Shown here in pieces: positions 5,001 through 36,126 of a stretch of DNA of 63,217 nt. Location of the stretch: positions 1-63,217 of IMG/VR virus record IMGVR_UViG_3300021379_000848. The stretch is one strand, 5' to 3'. The notes under the pieces are model-generated. The model saw nothing but the letters and a program-made list of their open reading frames with translations. It made no database searches and was not told the origin of the DNA. The DNA is from a virus. A program made the position numbers and the translations under genes. Within the stretch, counting starts at the first letter, position 1. Each line of letters opens with the position of its first letter.

Positions 5001-8000
5001 TAAGAATATAGATTCTAAAGCATCTAAATATTTTGATGATGAGTTAACACAGTTAGCTAAAGACTTTGAAGATGGTGTAATACCAGAGGATGAATATCTA
5101 CAGCGTATTGATGATCTGATGGATGAAATTGAAAAAGCTGAGGCAGCTAATGAAGAAGCAGAGGATTTTTCAGTTGTAAAAAAGCAACCTAAAAAAGCTA
5201 AAAAACAAAAGTCGGAATTACAAATTGAGTTAGCAGGTAAAGCTAAAATACATAAAGAATTACTAGATCGTATTGGTAATGATCCAAACGGTTATAATCC
5301 AGATGATGCTAGAATTTGGGATACGATAGCTAGCATGGTTGAATCTAAGTCTAGGAATTATACCACAGCTAAAGGTGACTATGCTCCATTAACTAATTTA
5401 CCTAAATTTGATATGGAAAGTATGGTCGCTGAAACTCAAGCTAGTTTAGTTAACTATATCAAAAAATTCGATCCTTCTTTAAATAATTCTCTTTATGGTT
5501 ATGTAAACGCGCAGCTCCTAAACAGGATGAGAGCAGCGTTGAAAACAGGCAAAGTAGCTGGTACCGAGTTTATGACGGATGTCACAGAAGCTAAAGGTAT
5601 AGCATACACTGACGAAGGTTATGTAGAAGTAAAAGGTAAAGAGTATACTAGAATATCTGATTCCAAAGCATTTTCAGATGAACTTATAGAAAAAGCTAAA
5701 GCCGATTTATTACGAGTTATAAGGGTGTTAAAATCAAAGATCGATTCCCCTATGACTATCAACCAATCTATATCACCATTAATGCGTGAAATTATCCAAA
5801 ATACTAAAAATATGATGGATGCCGATATTAAAGTTGAAATGGGAGGTAAGAAAGATGGTAAATTGCGTAAATGGTTACAAGCTAATAAGAAAATGGTAAT
5901 TGAAAATTCAACCACTACTTTCTTAATGGGTAAAAATAACGGTAAAGTTGTTAAAGGAGGTATACCTTCTGCTATTGAAAAGAAAGTTAACGGAAGATGG
6001 TTACCATATCCTGAGTGGATCGATAAGAAAATTGACAGAGAGACTACTTGGGCTAGAGGTAATACGTCTGGTAATGAGCTGGCTAGAAGAGTACCCGCTT
6101 CAAGAGTTTCAGATGCAGATTTCTTAAGTCACGTATTAGCACCTACTGGTAATCCTATTAGAGGTAGAAAAGAAGCAATAGCAATGCACTTATCTTCTGA
6201 ATTAAGTGTTGAACTGTTTATAAAAGAGCTAAAAGACGAGAATAGCGACATATCTAAAGCTTTTGAAACTAACAGGGAGCTAAGAGACGAAATACTGGTT
6301 GACAATGTTATTTCGGAATTATCTAAGCAAGCGGAAAGAGGTTTACTTAAAAACTCTATGCGTGACGGTACAATAATGGATGGAATTGCTGATCGCATAA
6401 AAAATAAAGCATTAAGTAAAACTATAAAAGCATATATTCAAAGCGAAGATAAAGAAGACCTCACAATGAGTGGTCTGTTAAGGTATATAAAGAATGAGGG
6501 CTTGTTGGATAATATGACAGTTTCAGACAAACTTAAGTTCTATATTGATGGCTTTATGGCTTTTAATGATGGACCAAAAGCTACACTTAAATTCTTTAAT
6601 CAAACAGAAGCTGTTGCTCAAGATGTTACTAGATCTGAAGCAGATGGATTAAATGAGGGTATTTTAAAATTCTCAGCTTATAGCGAAGCGGACTTAAATA
6701 AAAAGATCAATAAAATGCTGGAGCGTAAATCCGGTATAAAAGCAGGTACTAAAATTTCTAAAACTAGAGCTGCTAATATTGGAAAAAATAAAGGTAAGTT
6801 TAAATTCTTTTTACCTCCGAATGCTGAGGACTTTATGGGTTTAATATATCCTTTAATAGGTAAAGGTAAGCAAGGTGATAAAGACCTCGAGTTCATAAAA
6901 GAAACTTTGATTGATCCTTTTAATAGAGCTGAAAATGAGATTAGTGAATTTAGACAAAGGTTATCTGAAGATCTAAAGGTGCTAAACAAAGAAATGGGTG
7001 ACTTAGATACAAATGTAGACAAGGAAATTATAAAGGAATTAGCTGAGCAAAACTTTACACCTACTCAAGCTGTTAGGGTCTTTATATGGACAGCGCGTGG
7101 AGAAGACATTCCTGATTTAACTAAAAGCGAAGCTCTTAAGTTAAGATTAAAGGTTATGAAAGATAAAAAGCTGCTTAAGTACGCTAAAGATCTAATGGAG
7201 ATTACATCTAAGTTTGGTGGTTACCCACCTCCAAGCAAAACGTGGGCCGCTGGTAATGTAACAGCCGATTTCTATGAATACGCTAATGAAAACGTTAGAG
7301 CTGATATATTAGCTGATTGGCAAGCTACTGTTGATGTTATGTTTAATAAGGAAAATTTAAACAAGATGTTAGCTATTTTCGGTAAGGATTATGTAAAGAA
7401 CCTAGAGAGAAGTTTACAACGCATGAAATCTGGTAAGAATCGCCTACATACTCAAGACGATTTAGGTAGTGGGTTTTTAAATTTTATCAATGGTTCTATC
7501 GGGGTTATCATGTTTATGAATATTCGTTCCGCCGTGTTACAAACTATATCCGCTGTTAACTTTATGAACTGGACAGATAATAATCCTATAAAAGCCGCAA
7601 AAACTTTAAAAGACCCTAAGAACGTAGCTAATCACTTTATGAGACTATTGAATTCAGATTTCTTAAAACAACGAAGAGCTGGGTTAGAGATAGATGTAGC
7701 TGAATCGGAAATTGCAGACGCGGCCACAGAAGCAAGAAACTTTGCGAAAAGTGTATTTCATAAATTAATAAGATTAGGGTATAAGCCAACTCAGTTTGCG
7801 GATAGTTTTGCTATTGCTTTAGGTGGTACTACTTTTATTATTAATAGACAAGCTACTTATGAAGCTGAAGGTATGACAGCAGAAGAAGCGTATGAAAAAG
7901 CGTTTGTAGACTTTAGAGAGATAGCTGAAGAAAACCAGCAATCATCGAGAACAGATAAAGTATCTAATATTCAATCTTCTGCTTTAGGTAGATTAGTATT

Positions 8001-8718
8001 TGCATTTAACAATACACCGTTCCAGTACACCCGTATTATAAAGAAAGCTACTTTAGATCTAATAAACAATAGAGGTGATTGGAGAACAAATGTAAGTAAA
8101 ATAATTTACTACGGCGCAGCACAGAATGCAATATTCTTCACATTGCAACAGGCTCTTTTTTCAGTAATGTTTGATGATGAAGAAGAAGAAAAAACTACAG
8201 CTAAGCAACTTCGTTTGGCTAACAGTATGGTTGATTCTATATTAAGAGGTTCTGGTTTACCAGGAGCAGTAGTTAGTACACTTAAGAATACTTTAATTAA
8301 ATATACGGAAGAAGAAAAGAAAGGGTGGAGAGGCAGTCCTGAAAAAGTTGTATTAGAGCTAAGTTCTTTATCACCGCCTATCAATTATAAAGCTAAAAAG
8401 ATAGTGAACTTTATCAATAGCGCTAAATACTCAGAAAGTACATATGATGAAGTTAGAAGGTATGGTAAGCTGGTTTCAGTAGCAAATGTACCGGTTGATA
8501 GGATCTTAACCAAATACGATAATCTAACCACAGCAATGAGTGGTGATATAGAAAATTGGCAAAGAGTTGCTTTAACGTTAGGATGGGATAAATGGAGTCT
8601 AGATTTGTACGATAAAAAGAAAAAGAAAGCTAAAAAGACAAACAACGCTATAAAAACTTTAAAAATGAAACCACTAAAAATGAAACCACTAAAAATGAAA
8701 CCACTAAAAATGAAATAA
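2086..8718 (+). CDS. Giant internal/ejection protein with zincin-like HExxH motif, 2210 residues
   Basis: This is the largest gene in the window. Residues 150-177 repeat the YP..YE.Y.KKA module of the preceding protein. Around residues 310-480 there are Ala/Gly-rich, membrane-compatible helices. HEVLH at 799-803 fits the HExxH zinc-metallopeptidase motif and is followed by a helical region (EELITVLSEH) and a charged linker. Residues about 1120-1150 (FDPSLNNSLYGYVNAQLLNRM) and 1570-1640 (FFLPPNAEDFMGLIY...GKGKQGD) resemble domains found in polyvalent internal proteins of marine phages. The region around 1800-2050 (MFMNIRSAVLQTISAVNF, PFQYTRIIKKA) is the hydrophobic end common to such proteins. 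The C-terminus is a KMKPL tandem repeat. Injection into the host with the DNA is inferred; protease activity is only suggested by the motif. No polymerase motif was found. Confidence 0.75.
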   Translation: MEELYNDLYGKGLYTKSLQDFEQQFTGKEDILFNAIGEDYASDLEEFKQKYFSPGKTQGPAKDAAAVGPLNAADLDSTSSDGSLDFLELDKTFKGTLEEPANPMYQLVDTLGKQKEVEIENEWVEESLLPKKTGYKREDGVTKKIEVPIYPKGYEEYMKKAEGNLDLAKKMYLKDKKSEIVGEELSKYISDKNSDDLEEYFDEYKDLKIEQTEKLSDVVDINSTSLKYLKDETVNAVNAIQKIDKAFERADLLSRDRIKELIDYRENYLTVAKQAIKKSQDLVNTNTKLAYLLKDEEKFIDAAKRSYDFVDILGYSALASTGEMIAGAIDLPKMFVASTLSGILDQDLDDVDRAVVAAFAPFQFADNLRKGSTELREGIAKPISISDVENMSDFGEWAGSLIGNMAPQIALGIATGGGGWAASTAMGVSSAAGKYSDLLKEMEEGAEYTTAQVLSSALISGAAETLSEKITFGQFKGIKQILKRNPKSLKAAQEYIQNNIAKGAYLKTTGQEALSEVAAQLANNMVDINILEKKDVNITDGLLDSLAGGAFMSGVMFKSPAVLANVYHKVRGTEIAEKLRKNAIQITKLDKALTDLEKKESTPENEEVKKGLIESMDKIAKNSLNAMTEDVQLVNFMTKDEKAEIESLNEKKADIESKAKTIFNNKDLDPDIKKQQLDELNNQYKEVTKRRSFLSKVAAVRVNQGKDAKSLQEAWERSQKVMQEFANDADLNIDYIEINSTNFESKIKDLNLTQNQKKSILENNGTFLDSSTNSNINKDIIFINKDLDAAYGAATTVQHEVLHVVLNKVVKDQLKIAGKDASNTQAVIDGMGLKLYEKLSKVEGFNDTTLAKRFDYYLENSNFALEELITVLSEHISETKAKKGTFSAIVEFFKDLYARFTGQQLQLETTDDLLGFVNSYTKMFDAGKIDTDISGAVKEARVKIDLNVDRAQIQKRIDEIRKERGITRRPQIKNIDSKASKYFDDELTQLAKDFEDGVIPEDEYLQRIDDLMDEIEKAEAANEEAEDFSVVKKQPKKAKKQKSELQIELAGKAKIHKELLDRIGNDPNGYNPDDARIWDTIASMVESKSRNYTTAKGDYAPLTNLPKFDMESMVAETQASLVNYIKKFDPSLNNSLYGYVNAQLLNRMRAALKTGKVAGTEFMTDVTEAKGIAYTDEGYVEVKGKEYTRISDSKAFSDELIEKAKADLLRVIRVLKSKIDSPMTINQSISPLMREIIQNTKNMMDADIKVEMGGKKDGKLRKWLQANKKMVIENSTTTFLMGKNNGKVVKGGIPSAIEKKVNGRWLPYPEWIDKKIDRETTWARGNTSGNELARRVPASRVSDADFLSHVLAPTGNPIRGRKEAIAMHLSSELSVELFIKELKDENSDISKAFETNRELRDEILVDNVISELSKQAERGLLKNSMRDGTIMDGIADRIKNKALSKTIKAYIQSEDKEDLTMSGLLRYIKNEGLLDNMTVSDKLKFYIDGFMAFNDGPKATLKFFNQTEAVAQDVTRSEADGLNEGILKFSAYSEADLNKKINKMLERKSGIKAGTKISKTRAANIGKNKGKFKFFLPPNAEDFMGLIYPLIGKGKQGDKDLEFIKETLIDPFNRAENEISEFRQRLSEDLKVLNKEMGDLDTNVDKEIIKELAEQNFTPTQAVRVFIWTARGEDIPDLTKSEALKLRLKVMKDKKLLKYAKDLMEITSKFGGYPPPSKTWAAGNVTADFYEYANENVRADILADWQATVDVMFNKENLNKMLAIFGKDYVKNLERSLQRMKSGKNRLHTQDDLGSGFLNFINGSIGVIMFMNIRSAVLQTISAVNFMNWTDNNPIKAAKTLKDPKNVANHFMRLLNSDFLKQRRAGLEIDVAESEIADAATEARNFAKSVFHKLIRLGYKPTQFADSFAIALGGTTFIINRQATYEAEGMTAEEAYEKAFVDFREIAEENQQSSRTDKVSNIQSSALGRLVFAFNNTPFQYTRIIKKATLDLINNRGDWRTNVSKIIYYGAAQNAIFFTLQQALFSVMFDDEEEEKTTAKQLRLANSMVDSILRGSGLPGAVVSTLKNTLIKYTEEEKKGWRGSPEKVVLELSSLSPPINYKAKKIVNFINSAKYSESTYDEVRRYGKLVSVANVPVDRILTKYDNLTTAMSGDIENWQRVALTLGWDKWSLDLYDKKKKKAKKTNNAIKTLKMKPLKMKPLKMKPLKMK
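8661..8715 (+). repeat. 15-bp tandem repeat at the 3' end of the giant gene
   Basis: Three full and one partial copy of AAAAATGAAACCACT encode the C-terminal KMKPLKMKPLKMKPLKMK of the giant protein. The last copy runs straight into the TAATG stop/start overlap with the next gene. Copies are identical at DNA level, which suggests recent slippage expansion. Confidence 0.95.
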
Positions 8719-10608: not shown

Positions 10609-12381
10609 TTATCCGTCGCAAGACAAGCAGTCACTAAACGCTGTTGCTGCTATATCACCTCTAAGCGTACTTTCAGGTCTAACATAATATAACGTTTTAA
10701 TTCCATGTTTCCATGCTTCTAAATGTACTTGGTTAAACCACTTTGGAGGTACATCAACTGGAAATGCTAAATTAAGCGATACGGACTGATCTATGTACGT
10801 TTGTCTGATTCCAGCCTGTTTCACTAGCTCTAACTGATTAAGCTCTCTAAACGTCTTAAAAACGTCTTTAATCTCAATAATATTGCCAAGTCTTACATCA
10901 TCTTCAGATAAATGTTCTTTAGAGCTCAGTCTTCCATCAAAATAACACCAAGAGTCTAATTCATCAATACCTTGTACTGATCCTTCGTCAGCTAAAATTC
11001 TATTCCAGATTTCAGTATTATTAATACCCATAGCTTCTAAAACTTCTTCAAGCACTTTATTCCTTCTAATAAATGTACCCGCAGATCCTTTTTCAGTAAA
11101 TAGGTTCGCAGCCCAAGGTTCGATACCTGGTGAAACATTTCCAGCTAACTTGCTATTAGATACAGTGGGAGCTACAGCTCTAAGGTGAGTGTTCCTCATG
11201 CCTGTACCTTTACACCATAATGGCTCACCATATACGTCAGCTAGATCTCTACTTGCTCTTTCGGATTCAATCTTCATTCTTGAAAATATCTCTCTTGTAG
11301 CAAACTGAGCTGGTAAACCTTCAAATGGAATACCTCTTTCCTGGAGATACGTATGCCATCCAAGTACACCTAATCCTAAAGCTCTACCTTTTTCCGCAGA
11401 ACGTATAGCATTTTCGAAACCTTGACGATATTTAGCTTTCTGAATAAACTCTTCCAGTACACCATCTAAAAACCATGTAGCATCATAAATTAAGTTTGTG
11501 TCTTTCCATTCATCATACTTAGCTAAGTTTAAAGACGATAAACAACAAACAAAGCTATGAGACTCGTCTGTGTGTAGTACAATCTCTGAACAAATGTTTG
11601 TCATATGCACTTTAAGGCTATTCTTTTTGTATGCTTCAGGATTTGCTTTATTAACATTTCCTTTAAACATAATATAAGGTTCACCTGTTTGTTTACGCTT
11701 CTGTAAGATCTTACCCCAACGTCTTCTAGCTTCTTGATCTCCTTTTTCAAGAGAATTCATAAAACCATCATCAATAACTACACAATGATGCAGGTTTAAG
11801 CATTGTCTATTTATATCTCCTTTAGGCTCTCTGATTTCTAACCATTGATCAAAATCACCATGATTAACTTTAATATTTGTAGAAGCAGCACCTCTTCTAA
11901 CAGCTCCTTGATTTGTTGCTAAAATTGTTGAGTCATAGATTTTAGTAAAAGGTACAACACCATCTGAAGTACCATTACCTGTTATAGAAGAACCCGCTGG
12001 TCTAATCATATTTGTGCCAATACCTACACCACCTCCGTGTTTTGCTAACAGCATTAACTCTAAATTCTTCTTACCAATGTCGTAGATTGAATCCGCTACA
12101 TCAATACCGAAGCAGCTTATTGGTAAACCTCTTTCAGTTCCGGTGTTAGATAATACTGGGGAAGCGAGACATAACCAACCATTCCAAATGTATTCAAAGA
12201 ATCTTTCAGATAGTTCTGGACGATAAAGTCTTTTAGCAACTGTGGATGCCACCCTATAGTAAGCCTCCCTGGGCGTCTCGCCTTCAAGAAGATAACCGTC
12301 GGTAATTGTTCTTTTGTATATTTCGTTGTCTCCCCATTCAGGGTAATCAACTCCTTTGATCCATTCATTATTCCAAGTCAT
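10609..12381 (-). CDS. nrdA: Ribonucleoside-diphosphate reductase, large (alpha) subunit
   Basis: Class I ribonucleotide reductase alpha chain, which makes deoxyribonucleotides together with NrdB. Visible motifs are the first redox Cys in LPISCFG, the active-site N-x-C-x-E (NICSEI, residues 262-267), the second redox Cys in SFVCCLSSLNL, and the radical-transfer Tyr pair in KTLYYVRPE. The C-terminal C-x-x-C tail CLSCDG recharges the site. The N-terminal ATP-cone domain is absent and the chain is 590 residues, shorter than bacterial NrdA, so dATP feedback through a cone is not expected. The start overlaps the preceding 86-residue gene by 14 bp. It is the last gene of the early module. Confidence 0.95.
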   Translation of the reverse strand: MTWNNEWIKGVDYPEWGDNEIYKRTITDGYLLEGETPREAYYRVASTVAKRLYRPELSERFFEYIWNGWLCLASPVLSNTGTERGLPISCFGIDVADSIYDIGKKNLELMLLAKHGGGVGIGTNMIRPAGSSITGNGTSDGVVPFTKIYDSTILATNQGAVRRGAASTNIKVNHGDFDQWLEIREPKGDINRQCLNLHHCVVIDDGFMNSLEKGDQEARRRWGKILQKRKQTGEPYIMFKGNVNKANPEAYKKNSLKVHMTNICSEIVLHTDESHSFVCCLSSLNLAKYDEWKDTNLIYDATWFLDGVLEEFIQKAKYRQGFENAIRSAEKGRALGLGVLGWHTYLQERGIPFEGLPAQFATREIFSRMKIESERASRDLADVYGEPLWCKGTGMRNTHLRAVAPTVSNSKLAGNVSPGIEPWAANLFTEKGSAGTFIRRNKVLEEVLEAMGINNTEIWNRILADEGSVQGIDELDSWCYFDGRLSSKEHLSEDDVRLGNIIEIKDVFKTFRELNQLELVKQAGIRQTYIDQSVSLNLAFPVDVPPKWFNQVHLEAWKHGIKTLYYVRPESTLRGDIAATAFSDCLSCDG

Positions 12382-27884: not shown

Positions 27885-28146
27885 AAGTTTTCTTTTTAAA
27901 TGCATCACCAAAACGGATATCATGTGTACTATAAGCATTAAATGCTTTGTCTCGATGAGGGATAGGAACACTATTAAAAATAGTAGCTATCTCACTTATA
28001 GTAAGTTCACCCCACGAATATACTCTGCGAGAAACGATATCTTGTAATATACCGGGGTACTCCACAGCTAATACTTCTACTACGTCGTCAATTAAGACGT
28101 CAGTTAAAAAAGAATTTAATGTAATTTCAGTTTGAATTGTTTTCAT
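27868..28146 (-). CDS. Hypothetical 92-residue protein
   Basis: Starts MKTIQTEITLNSFLTDVLID; contains RVYSWGELTISEIATIFNSV and a basic C-terminus. First gene of a three-gene group behind promoter element 5. Confidence 0.65.
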   Translation of the reverse strand: MKTIQTEITLNSFLTDVLIDDVVEVLAVEYPGILQDIVSRRVYSWGELTISEIATIFNSVPIPHRDKAFNAYSTHDIRFGDAFKKKTYEKSE

Positions 28147-28552: not shown

Positions 28553-28574
28553 AATTATAGTTTTTATTTGTTAG

Positions 28575-28662
28575 TGGACGTGGCAGGAATCGAACCTGCG
28601 TTTTGAAGCATTTGGACTCGGTAACCTGTTATTTATTCGCTTCGTCTAACCATTTCACGCCC
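28575..28662 (-). ncRNA. tRNA-like domain (acceptor stem with G3-U70, T-arm), non-canonical
   Basis: On the minus strand GGGCGTG (28662..28656) pairs fully with CACGTCC plus discriminator A (28582..28575), including a third-pair G-U, the alanine identity element of tRNA-Ala and tmRNA. The T-arm is GCAGG TTCGATT CCTGC. The D-arm is reduced to a loop (AAATGGTTAGAC, similar to the tmRNA D-loop). GAAGC/GCTTC closes a 29-nt loop instead of an anticodon arm. CCA is not encoded (CTA follows). It is therefore not a decoding tRNA; a tmRNA-type or mimic domain is more likely. Confidence 0.55.
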
Positions 28663-28965
28663 AATTGCAGCACCTACCTTCAATACTATCCGTCGATAGC
28701 GTCCTACTTTGGGTGGCATTACGGTATCGTAGAATACCTGTGCTGCATTGAGAAGCGGATAGACCTGGAATGTTAGGGATGCTCCCGGATTACACTAAGG
28801 AATGCACGTCATTTACTAGTATGCCCTGACTTATAACCTCAGTGTACGCTACCTAGACTTACACCCTTTTCTCTGTTTATACTATCTTTCACCGTCATCG
28901 AGCCGTTTCTCTCATCCCGCTAAGGAATTACGCCTTTAATCCGGTTTCCAGACTTCTTCTCAGTT
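28575..28965 (-). ncRNA. Long structured RNA with tRNA/tmRNA-like 3' end
   Basis: About 390 nt without a plausible reading frame, with its own promoter (element 6) immediately upstream. The base composition is clearly less AT-rich than the flanking gaps. Helices include TGCAGCAC/GTGCTGCA (28740..28747 with 28666..28673), GGTAT/ATACC (28723..28738), CTATC/GATAG (28686..28699), CACTGAGG/CCTTAGTG and GTGTA/TACAC. It ends in an acceptor stem plus T-arm (next entry). Length and 3' end recall tmRNA, but no tag frame and no 5' acceptor strand near 28965 were found. Group I intron hallmarks are also not satisfied. Class unresolved; RNA identity itself is well supported. Confidence 0.65.
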
Positions 28966-28972
28966 TTATTTT

Positions 28973-29017
28973 TTATTCAATTAATTTATCATTTAACGAT
29001 CGTGCTCAGTTTGTAAG
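28973..29017 (-). promoter_or_regulatory. Early promoter-like element 6 (drives the structured RNA)
   Basis: Minus-strand CTTACA, 7 nt, CACG, 10 nt, GATAAA, ending TTGAAT. Encodes the last residues (LQTEHDR) of the upstream gene and points directly into the RNA. Confidence 0.8.
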
Positions 29018-34306: not shown

Positions 34307-35857
34307 ATGACAAAAGATGAGATTGTAAAAGATCTGTCATTTGGAACTGATGCGAGTTCTAAAATAATGGCAGGTGTAGATAAGTTAGCTAGCGCAGTGA
34401 AGTCTACTTTAGGTGCATCGGGGATGTGCGTAATTTATGAGGACCAGCTAGGTAGACCGGTGGTCACAAAAGATGGTGTAACCGTTGCGAGGAACGTAGT
34501 CTTAATGGACCCGGTCGAAAACATTGGTGCCACAATGATTAAAGAAGCGGCTAACAAAACGGTTGCTGAAGCAGGTGATGGTACAACAACCTCTACAGTA
34601 TTAGCTCAAGCGGTTTTACATGAGTTAAGAACTGCTGTAGACAGCGGAATGAGTGTCCGAACTGCCGTAGATGGTGTGAATACTTATTTAGCTAAAGTAT
34701 TAGAGTATTTAGATGAACATGCTATTGAGGTTAACGGTTCAATGTTATCAGATGTAGCTACTATTAGTTGTAATAATGACAGAGAGCTAGGTGGAATCAT
34801 CGGTGAGGCTTATGACAAAGTAGGTAGAGACGGAGTTGTTACAATTGAAAAGTCTGATACCTATGACACGTACTTAGAATTTATCGAGGGAGCACAGTTT
34901 GCTTCTGGATTACAATCGCAGTATTTTGCAACAGATACAGCGAAACTAATTGCGGAATATGAAAATCCGTTAGTATTATTGTCAGCATCGGAAATTGGAG
35001 ATATCCGTAAGATTCGCGGTATTCTAGAATATGCTATTAAACAAGATAGACCGTTATTAATTGTGGCATCGGTAGATGATAGGGTATTGCAAATATTGAT
35101 GGCTAATGTAGCTAACCACAATACGAAGATTAATGTAGTTGAACCTCCGGGGTTTGGTCCTATGCGTGAAGATGCAATCCAGGATTTAGCATTTTTAACT
35201 GGAGCGGCAGTTTTAAACGAAAACTTAGGTGACGACTTTGAATTAGCATCGACAGATATCCTAGGGGAAGCTAAAAAGGTTATCACAGATAATAAGACGA
35301 CTACGATAATGCTTGATAGCGTTCCAGAATCAGTTTCAGAGCGCATAGAGGACGTTAAAAATAAAATTAATAGCGAAACTAATGATTTCCTAAAAAAGAA
35401 GCACGAGGCTCGTTTAGCGACTTTAACCGGTAAGCTAGGAGTTATAAAAGTCGGAGCTCATTCTGAAATTGAGTACAAAGAGAAGTATGATCGAGTAGAG
35501 GATGCGGTTTATGCGACAAAAGCTGCTTATAAGGAAGGAATTGTTGCCGGTGGCGGTGTTGCTTTGTTAAATGCTTCAACCCTAGTGCCTGTTTCTAGTG
35601 AAGGTGAAAGATTATTGGCTTCAGCTATCATGAATCCGTATATTACAATTATAGACAACGCAGGGTTGGATGCGGTTTTCCCACAAGACAAAGATCACGG
35701 GTTAGATGTTAAGTCCGGTAAAGATGTTAATATGATTGAAGCGGGTATTATTGACCCTGTGTTAGTAACTAAAACAGCTTTAATCAATGCGGTTAGTGTA
35801 GCTACGACGATTATTTCAGCAAATTGTGTAATTAGTAACAAAAGAATCACAGTATAA
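34307..35857 (+). CDS. groEL: Chaperonin GroEL (phage-encoded)
   Basis: 516 residues. ATP-site motifs are intact: TKDGVTVAR (Asp56), AGDGTTT (residues 89-95, Asp91), and VEDAVYATKAA...EGIVAGGG with the catalytic-position Asp399. The apical domain is present (VVEPPGFGPMREDAIQDLAFLTG region), with KVGRDGVVTIEKS before it. It is about 30 residues shorter than bacterial GroEL and lacks the GGM tail. It would fold capsid or other phage proteins with the GroES encoded next; the stop and start of the two genes overlap (TAATGG). Sequence divergence suggests a long phage history, not recent capture. Confidence 0.93.
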   Translation: MTKDEIVKDLSFGTDASSKIMAGVDKLASAVKSTLGASGMCVIYEDQLGRPVVTKDGVTVARNVVLMDPVENIGATMIKEAANKTVAEAGDGTTTSTVLAQAVLHELRTAVDSGMSVRTAVDGVNTYLAKVLEYLDEHAIEVNGSMLSDVATISCNNDRELGGIIGEAYDKVGRDGVVTIEKSDTYDTYLEFIEGAQFASGLQSQYFATDTAKLIAEYENPLVLLSASEIGDIRKIRGILEYAIKQDRPLLIVASVDDRVLQILMANVANHNTKINVVEPPGFGPMREDAIQDLAFLTGAAVLNENLGDDFELASTDILGEAKKVITDNKTTTIMLDSVPESVSERIEDVKNKINSETNDFLKKKHEARLATLTGKLGVIKVGAHSEIEYKEKYDRVEDAVYATKAAYKEGIVAGGGVALLNASTLVPVSSEGERLLASAIMNPYITIIDNAGLDAVFPQDKDHGLDVKSGKDVNMIEAGIIDPVLVTKTALINAVSVATTIISANCVISNKRITV

Positions 35858-36126
35858 TGGAAGCAATAGGATATTATGTAATCGTTGAAAAGATTAAAGA
35901 AGAACCGAAAAAAGTTGGAGGATTAGCGTTAACTGAAGCTCAAAATAAAGATATTCGCTATAGTAAAGGTAAAATTATTACAAAAGGAGAGTTGGTTCCT
36001 GATAGTGTAGTATTACAGGGTGTGTGCTGGTACGATAAAGCAGCAGGACATTCAATTCAATATATTGATGATAAGATATATCAAGTATTAAGATACGACC
36101 GTGGGGATATTGTCTTAATTGAATAA
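35857..36126 (+). CDS. groES: Co-chaperonin GroES-like protein
   Basis: 89 residues on the Cpn10 plan. The N-terminal strand (GYYVIVEKIKEEPKK) is followed by the mobile loop with V-G-G-L (KKVGGLALTEAQ), strands around YSKGKIITKGE, and the end DRGDIVLIE. The central acidic roof part is reworked (QGVCWYDKAAGHSIQYIDDK). It caps the phage GroEL and is translationally coupled to it. Confidence 0.85.
   Translation: MEAIGYYVIVEKIKEEPKKVGGLALTEAQNKDIRYSKGKIITKGELVPDSVVLQGVCWYDKAAGHSIQYIDDKIYQVLRYDRGDIVLIE

Follow-up and report, generated by a model that had tools for sequence, protein, structure and literature searches.

On the minus strand of the window (the whole 63,217-nucleotide stretch of viral DNA analyzed here, positions 1 to 63,217 of IMG/VR record IMGVR_UViG_3300021379_000848), positions 28662 to 28575 carry an 88-nt tRNA-like domain (TLD) of tmRNA. 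Judging from sequence comparison, the element consists of the two halves of the tmRNA TLD joined by a short hairpin, and it is almost certainly a conserved, TLD-only homolog of tmRNA. For the whole statement, in which this RNA would also be matured, charged, bound and inhibitory, we estimate a probability of about 55%. A TLD-only tmRNA is already known in one reported phage, DS6A, and a similar molecule has been reported, as cited in later papers, to inhibit tmRNA; what is new here is the scale, the covariation and a set of about 20 recurrent RNA modules that are exchanged, orientation preserved, between the P2 loop and the surroundings of the TLD. The features of the locus are as follows:

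28575–28662, minus strand: whole TLD-only tmRNA, 88 nt (RF00023 match, our own model R1, synteny and covariation in relatives)
28656–28662, minus strand: acceptor stem 5' strand GGGCGTG, pairing 7/7 with 28576–28582 and including G3-U70
28644–28655, minus strand: D-loop region AAATGGTTAGAC without a D-stem, of the tmRNA type UGG...GAC (alignment to the 5' end of RF00023)
28638–28643, minus strand: P2 stem 5' strand GAAGCG; the stem occurs in 109/109 relatives, with varying sequence and compensatory changes
28607–28641, minus strand: module M01 (AGCGAATAAATAACAGGTTACCGAGTCCAAATGCT), overlapping the P2 stem and occupying its loop
28605–28610, minus strand: P2 stem 3' strand TGCTTC, pairing with 28638–28643
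28583–28599, minus strand: T-arm GCAGG-TTCGATT-CCTGC, with compensatory changes in the T-stem
28576–28582, minus strand: acceptor stem 3' strand CACGTCC; pair 4:69 in relatives is C-G, A-U, G-C or U-A
28572–28574, minus strand: encoded 3' trailer CTA at the position of CCA, as in 104/109 short TLDs
28666–28747, minus strand: domain B, closed by TGCAGCAC/GTGCTGCA (the minimum-energy fold contains this closing stem)
28750–28961, minus strand: domain A, closed by GAGAAG/CTTCTC (core common to ten contigs, compensatory changes)
28964–28990, minus strand: promoter-like A+T-rich element; the same element precedes the gene starting at 28146

The TLD reads GGGCGTG-AAATGGTTAGAC-GAAGCG-(27 nt)-TGCTTC-AAAAC-GCAGGTTCGATTCCTGC-CACGTCC-A, followed by CTA. 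It has a 7-bp acceptor stem with G3-U70, a discriminator A and a canonical T-arm; the D-stem is absent, the D-loop has the form UGG...GAC and a P2 hairpin takes the place of the anticodon arm. A preliminary description, made from the letters alone, had placed the RNA correctly at 28575–28965 (the strand, which it left unstated, is minus, 28965 to 28575) and had already noted the perfect acceptor stem with its G3-U70 pair, the discriminator A, the T-arm, acceptor strands spanning 88 nt, and a reduced D-loop with a long loop for the anticodon arm, all of which are present. It had also held that the element was not an ordinary tRNA, which we could rule out on the grounds that the anticodon arm and D-stem are missing and ARAGORN was negative.

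The Rfam tmRNA model RF00023 aligned with the TLD from end to end (model positions 1–374; 35.1 bits, E 2.2e-12, relaxed threshold, 701 nt), and because the alignment covers 1–374 while skipping 326 positions, for which the window has 44 nt, the element is the two tmRNA TLD halves plus a short hairpin. This bears out the earlier view of a tmRNA-like 3' domain without a normal tmRNA and its tag frame. The score lies below the RF00023 gathering cut-off of 47, and the Rfam and ARAGORN searches that the preliminary description had proposed yielded, in the window region, nothing at gathering thresholds and neither a tRNA nor a tmRNA from ARAGORN, the relaxed tmRNA match being what they contributed. 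Our own model R1, whose training set includes the window, gave 60 bits and the TLD as its sole match in the window. A tag reading frame is absent from the TLD, with 44 nt between its halves and no conserved frame shared by the P2 inserts, and pseudoknots PK1–PK4 are absent for lack of space between the halves, the upstream domains lying outside the TLD. A permuted tmRNA (RF04321) was ruled out, since the 5' strand comes first and the score was only 15.3 bits against a cut-off of 47, and no match to GOLLD, ROOL, group I introns or other Rfam families could be found in the window or 13 relatives.

To collect relatives, the neighbor proteins of the window were used to gather 42 related viral contigs, 19 of which had an end-to-end short tmRNA-model match. 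No TLD was detected in 22 of the 42 at E 0.001 (some of these records are fragments), so the TLD is dispensable. In most inspected loci, the relatives' TLDs are intergenic and lie directly 3' of one recurrent small ORF. Just upstream of the TLD, the modules are usually preceded immediately by a small ORF that includes PIIEHKTGNTIQIVSQE and has HRSWRRK or HRAWRRK at its end (L015–L018, L036–L041 and others); the window has no ORF of this type at the corresponding place. A first pattern scan for short TLDs was rejected, as it returned chance matches and the permuted tmRNA of another phage. Scanning for the 3' half with CTA gave more than 120 contigs, roughly a dozen of them with complete tmRNAs of phages (∼240–410 nt), and a scan anchored on the 5' half and T-loop only gave 48 contigs. 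The two scans combined yielded 109 distinct short TLDs of 68–185 nt, the majority belonging to a single Flavobacteriia podovirus lineage. Most copies score below the Rfam tmRNA cut-off and ARAGORN misses the short TLD, while three relatives of 78–79 nt, all devoid of a tag domain, reached 53–61 bits, exceeding the cut-off of 47.

A homolog of the window's capsid protein (50–65% identity) was present in 27 of 40 tested contigs, most of the others being fragments. The terminase was nearest to those of the environmental genome MW202828 (62%), Flavobacterium Elemovirus (45%), Maribacter phage Panino (41%) and Cellulophaga phages of Pachyviridae (38%) and Pervagoviridae (37%). The short TLD was absent from the sequenced relatives (Flavobacterium elemo, Cellulophaga, Maribacter Panino, Tenacibaculum Gundel and MW202828); a 26-bit match in Panino was rejected, since it covers the 3' half of an annotated, apparently permuted tmRNA. 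Blastn against deposited phage isolates gave no close relative of the RNA or the modules, and no cultured phage of this lineage was found. Elsewhere, the cultured Microbacterium phage Gack (PP978884; L300 ∼1439–1530) carries a short TLD, unannotated and flanked by tRNA-Asn and tRNA-Gln, with acceptor GGGCCTG/CAGGTCC including G3-U70 and trailer CTC. Short TLDs were also seen on two small contigs (L298 and L299) of the Aliivibrio MAG Ust_30, probably phage contigs binned with a bacterial MAG. The window itself also carries adjacent genes that look, by sequence, GroEL-like (516 aa) and GroES-like (89 aa) at 34307–36126 (plus strand).

Comparison of the relatives shows that the TLD structure (acceptor, P2 and T-stem) is under selection. 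The sequences found through the 5' half and T-loop provide the cleaner test, as neither the outer acceptor pairs nor the 3' acceptor strand nor P2 played a part in their selection. Among these, 33 of 37 distinct sequences had 7/7 acceptor pairs, pair 4:69 was C-G in 17 and A-U in 16, the outer T-stem pairs covaried, and a P2 stem of ≥4 bp was present in 32 of the 33, compared with 19% of shuffled inserts. A formal count on 34 trimmed sequences, which came from a scanner requiring pairing, gave 98.2% standard pairs and 123 double changes against 38.5 in shuffles (0/500); the covariation score was 0.572, whereas slid structures did not exceed 0.085. Covariation in relatives, which the preliminary description had singled out as a check, is thus present in all three stems. 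G3-U70 is the established alanine identity pair; over all 109 short TLDs, pair 3:70 was G-U in 108 and pair 4:69 occurred in all four Watson–Crick forms, and since the former is fixed while its neighbor varies freely, selection for recognition by AlaRS is suggested. The idea of a decaying tmRNA or tRNA pseudogene, a remnant of gene capture, would fit a window copy that falls below the Rfam cut-off and is missed by ARAGORN; it is contradicted by the strong acceptor, P2 and T-stem covariation and the fixed G3-U70 across 109 distinct sequences, and we regard it as very improbable. The 'degenerate tmRNA' offered earlier therefore gives way, as far as decay is meant, to a conserved, covarying, tag-less TLD with a precedent in DS6A.

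The trailer was CTA in 104 of the 109 short TLDs and CCA in none; part of the 109 had been selected on CTA, and in the 5'-half/T-loop set, which had not, the count was 30 of 33. CTA or CAA also follows most Met, Gln and Gly tRNAs encoded at these loci, and the full tmRNA of Cellulophaga phage Calle_1 also carries CTA. We considered the CTA trailer as the mark of a non-chargeable 3' end and dropped this idea, since canonical phage tRNAs and the Calle_1 tmRNA share it. Since canonical tRNAs and TLDs of these phages have matching trailers, the TLD plausibly follows the same maturation route as the phage's tRNAs.

Upstream of the TLD, the evidence for structure is comparative. The region 28575–28965 is, as described earlier, less AT-rich than its surroundings (G+C 0.458, a value attained by 0.08% of 391-nt windows, versus 0.337 in the window overall) and gene-free, with no ORF of at least 60 aa and a longest short ORF of 57 aa on the opposite strand. 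The claim that it is helix-dense is not borne out by free energy, which for the 394-nt stretch was not significant (z = -1.5; 6/100 shuffles fold equally well), and holds on comparative evidence. The upstream 300 nt form two domains, A and B. No relative was found for the interior of domain B. Domain A is one composite of modules, with M10 (GATTAAAGGCG..CGGCTCGATGA) and M09 (AAGTCAGGG..AAATGACGTGCAT) nested inside it; in ten contigs its two inner stems showed 21 double changes (0/500 shuffles as high), a count limited to these stems as the outer one was misaligned by MAFFT. A putative promoter-like A+T element does precede the RNA, as had been proposed: ATAAATTAATTGAATAA occurs twice in the window, both times on the minus strand, with starts at 28989 and 28181. 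The A+T-rich promoter-like repeats ATAAATTAATTGAATAA and AAATAAAAACTATAATT, each present twice, were seen on the minus strand only (starts 28989, 28569, 28181 and 28163). On the other hand, the 390-nt unit of the preliminary description did not hold: its length is not conserved, and a single conserved 390-nt RNA is ruled out by locus L037, in which the TLD begins right after a stop codon. Of the suggested new phage RNA type with a tRNA-like tail, what remains is the structured upstream modules; conservation resides in the TLD itself, and upstream of it such modules are optional and exchangeable.

These modules are the most novel part of the finding. P2 inserts are drawn from recurring cassettes, as 49 of 109 match regions upstream of TLDs (E < 1e-3), nearly always in another contig, while shuffled inserts and the opposite strand gave 0 matches. 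Twenty module types were traced over the loci; they lie in P2, upstream of the TLD (mostly <600 nt) or nearby downstream, and wherever a copy's position relative to a TLD could be established, it shares the TLD orientation. M01, which occupies the window's P2 loop, is also in P2 of L015, L054 and L210 on the same strand, and in L039 it lies upstream of the TLD, same strand, inside module M08; similarly, M07 is nested within M04 in L060 and L142. No module matches any Rfam family, and a 138-nt query joining M11, M13 and M15 found nothing similar among deposited phages. A combinatorial phage RNA system, with a constant tmRNA-like domain and ∼20 exchangeable, nestable same-strand modules moving between hairpin loops and each adding its own binding or decoy activity, is a tentative possibility; if true, module activities would be aimed at host translation or defense factors. 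Module shuffling amounts to RNA evolution by accretion of folded cassettes at hairpin loops and is directly traceable in many genomes.

Several known systems bear on this interpretation. GOLLD and ROOL, the ornate phage RNAs, are likewise structured phage non-coding RNAs, but each has one fixed large fold, whereas the RNA in the window is of variable length and has no Rfam match. Standard tmRNA (RF00023) shares a homologous TLD, that is, an acceptor with G3-U70, no D-stem and a T-arm; the phage TLD differs in having neither tag frame nor pseudoknots and 44 nt for 326. Full 362-nt tmRNAs above the Rfam cut-off were found in the Cellulophaga phages Calle_1 and phi38:1 (Pervagoviridae), related phages with the tmRNA domain intact, of which Calle_1 shares the CTA trailer; a full tmRNA in phages with related terminases (37% identity) is consistent with loss of the tag domain. 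Mycobacteriophage DS6A is listed as a TLD-only tmRNA by tmRNA database papers (PMC4131195, PMC11915505; tmID 11587), and strong inhibition of tmRNA is reported for a similar TLD-only molecule, whether or not it can be charged, with titration of SmpB as a possible cause (Mao et al. 2009, as cited in both papers). DS6A, compared by description, resembles the window in being little more than a TLD without tag frame (88 nt here, 68–185 nt in relatives), but it is a single reported actinophage case, whereas the present RNAs form a large covarying Flavobacteriia phage family whose P2 and upstream modules are interchangeable. Among 97,179 tmRNAs, just 9 were counted as CDS-less and of standard form (PMC11915505). 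The tag frame has also been lost from CDS-less mitochondrial tmRNAs (RF02544) and ∼65-bp Mallomonadaceae plastid tmRNAs (PMC11915505); these are organellar, the mitochondrial genes being usually permuted, and swappable modules are not mentioned in that paper.

In the reading we prefer, a short P2 hairpin with an interchangeable module has, on sequence comparison, replaced the entire mRNA-like and pseudoknot domain. RNase P would cut the TLD from the phage transcript at the 5' end, tRNA 3' processing followed by CCA addition would complete the other end, and the product could be charged with alanine through G3-U70 and bind SmpB and EF-Tu. As no SmpB gene was found within the window, it would rely on host SmpB. 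Without a tag frame to continue on, the TLD would compete with host tmRNA for SmpB and stalled ribosomes and thereby suppress trans-translation during infection; the P2 and upstream modules may add bulk or extra binding surfaces. That the TLD is an alanylated, SmpB-binding decoy acting in this way has, we infer, about even odds. Elaborate modules recurring in P2 and upstream are more than a simple titrator would seem to need, which is a point against the inhibitor reading. If it is right, phages have repeatedly reduced the ribosome-rescue RNA to its tRNA-like half, probably to disturb trans-translation, and a stripped tmRNA would be a family-wide strategy and not a single oddity.

The main rival is tag-less rescue, in which an alanyl-TLD with SmpB enters stalled ribosomes, accepts the nascent chain and releases it untagged; phage proteins from broken mRNAs would then be spared destruction, and the TLD would be a helper, not an inhibitor. 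We know of no release mechanism for a peptidyl-TLD, and this rival appears unlikely. It would account for an alanine identity pair kept in 108 of 109 TLDs, though inhibition reportedly needs no charging (as cited in PMC4131195), and CDS-less mitochondrial tmRNA, conserved with SmpB, is thought to still aid incomplete mRNAs (PMC11915505); the sole reported test of the phage type, however, showed inhibition (as cited in PMC11915505 and PMC4131195). Alternatively, the TLD might be tRNA-like punctuation and 3'-end protection, exposing the phage transcript to cleavage by RNase P and the tRNA 3' machinery, with the upstream modules as the functional RNA. Its intergenic position (in L037 directly 3' of a stop codon), the true tRNA that follows it in some loci and the conserved structured modules upstream fit such a processing mark, but the fixed G3-U70 and tmRNA-type D-loop would be left unexplained and the true tRNAs of the same loci could serve equally, making it distinctly unlikely. 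The P2 loop of the window could also be read as a very short tag frame, GCG AAT AAA TAA (Ala-Asn-Lys-stop), which opens with an alanine codon, and tags of 2 aa have been reported in Fermentibacterota (PMC11915505). However, this motif belongs to M01, which is found outside the TLD in other phages, and most relatives carry other inserts without such a frame, so that we give a micro-tag hardly any credence.

Other tRNA-like sequences were also observed. A second class near the TLD, with AACTAGGTATGG...GAGGGTTCGATTCCCTCACTAGTTAC or GGATAGGTATGG...CACTATCCACTA, variable inserts and no clear anticodon arm, was seen in L041 (∼11207–11310), L034 (∼7940–8020) and L035 (∼8070–8160), and also in L013, L020, L030 and L043–L045. 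Finally, a tRNA-like match of ∼54 nt to our own TLD model (L028 6331–6384, L340; E 4e-4) adjoins M16 and M01-like sequence.
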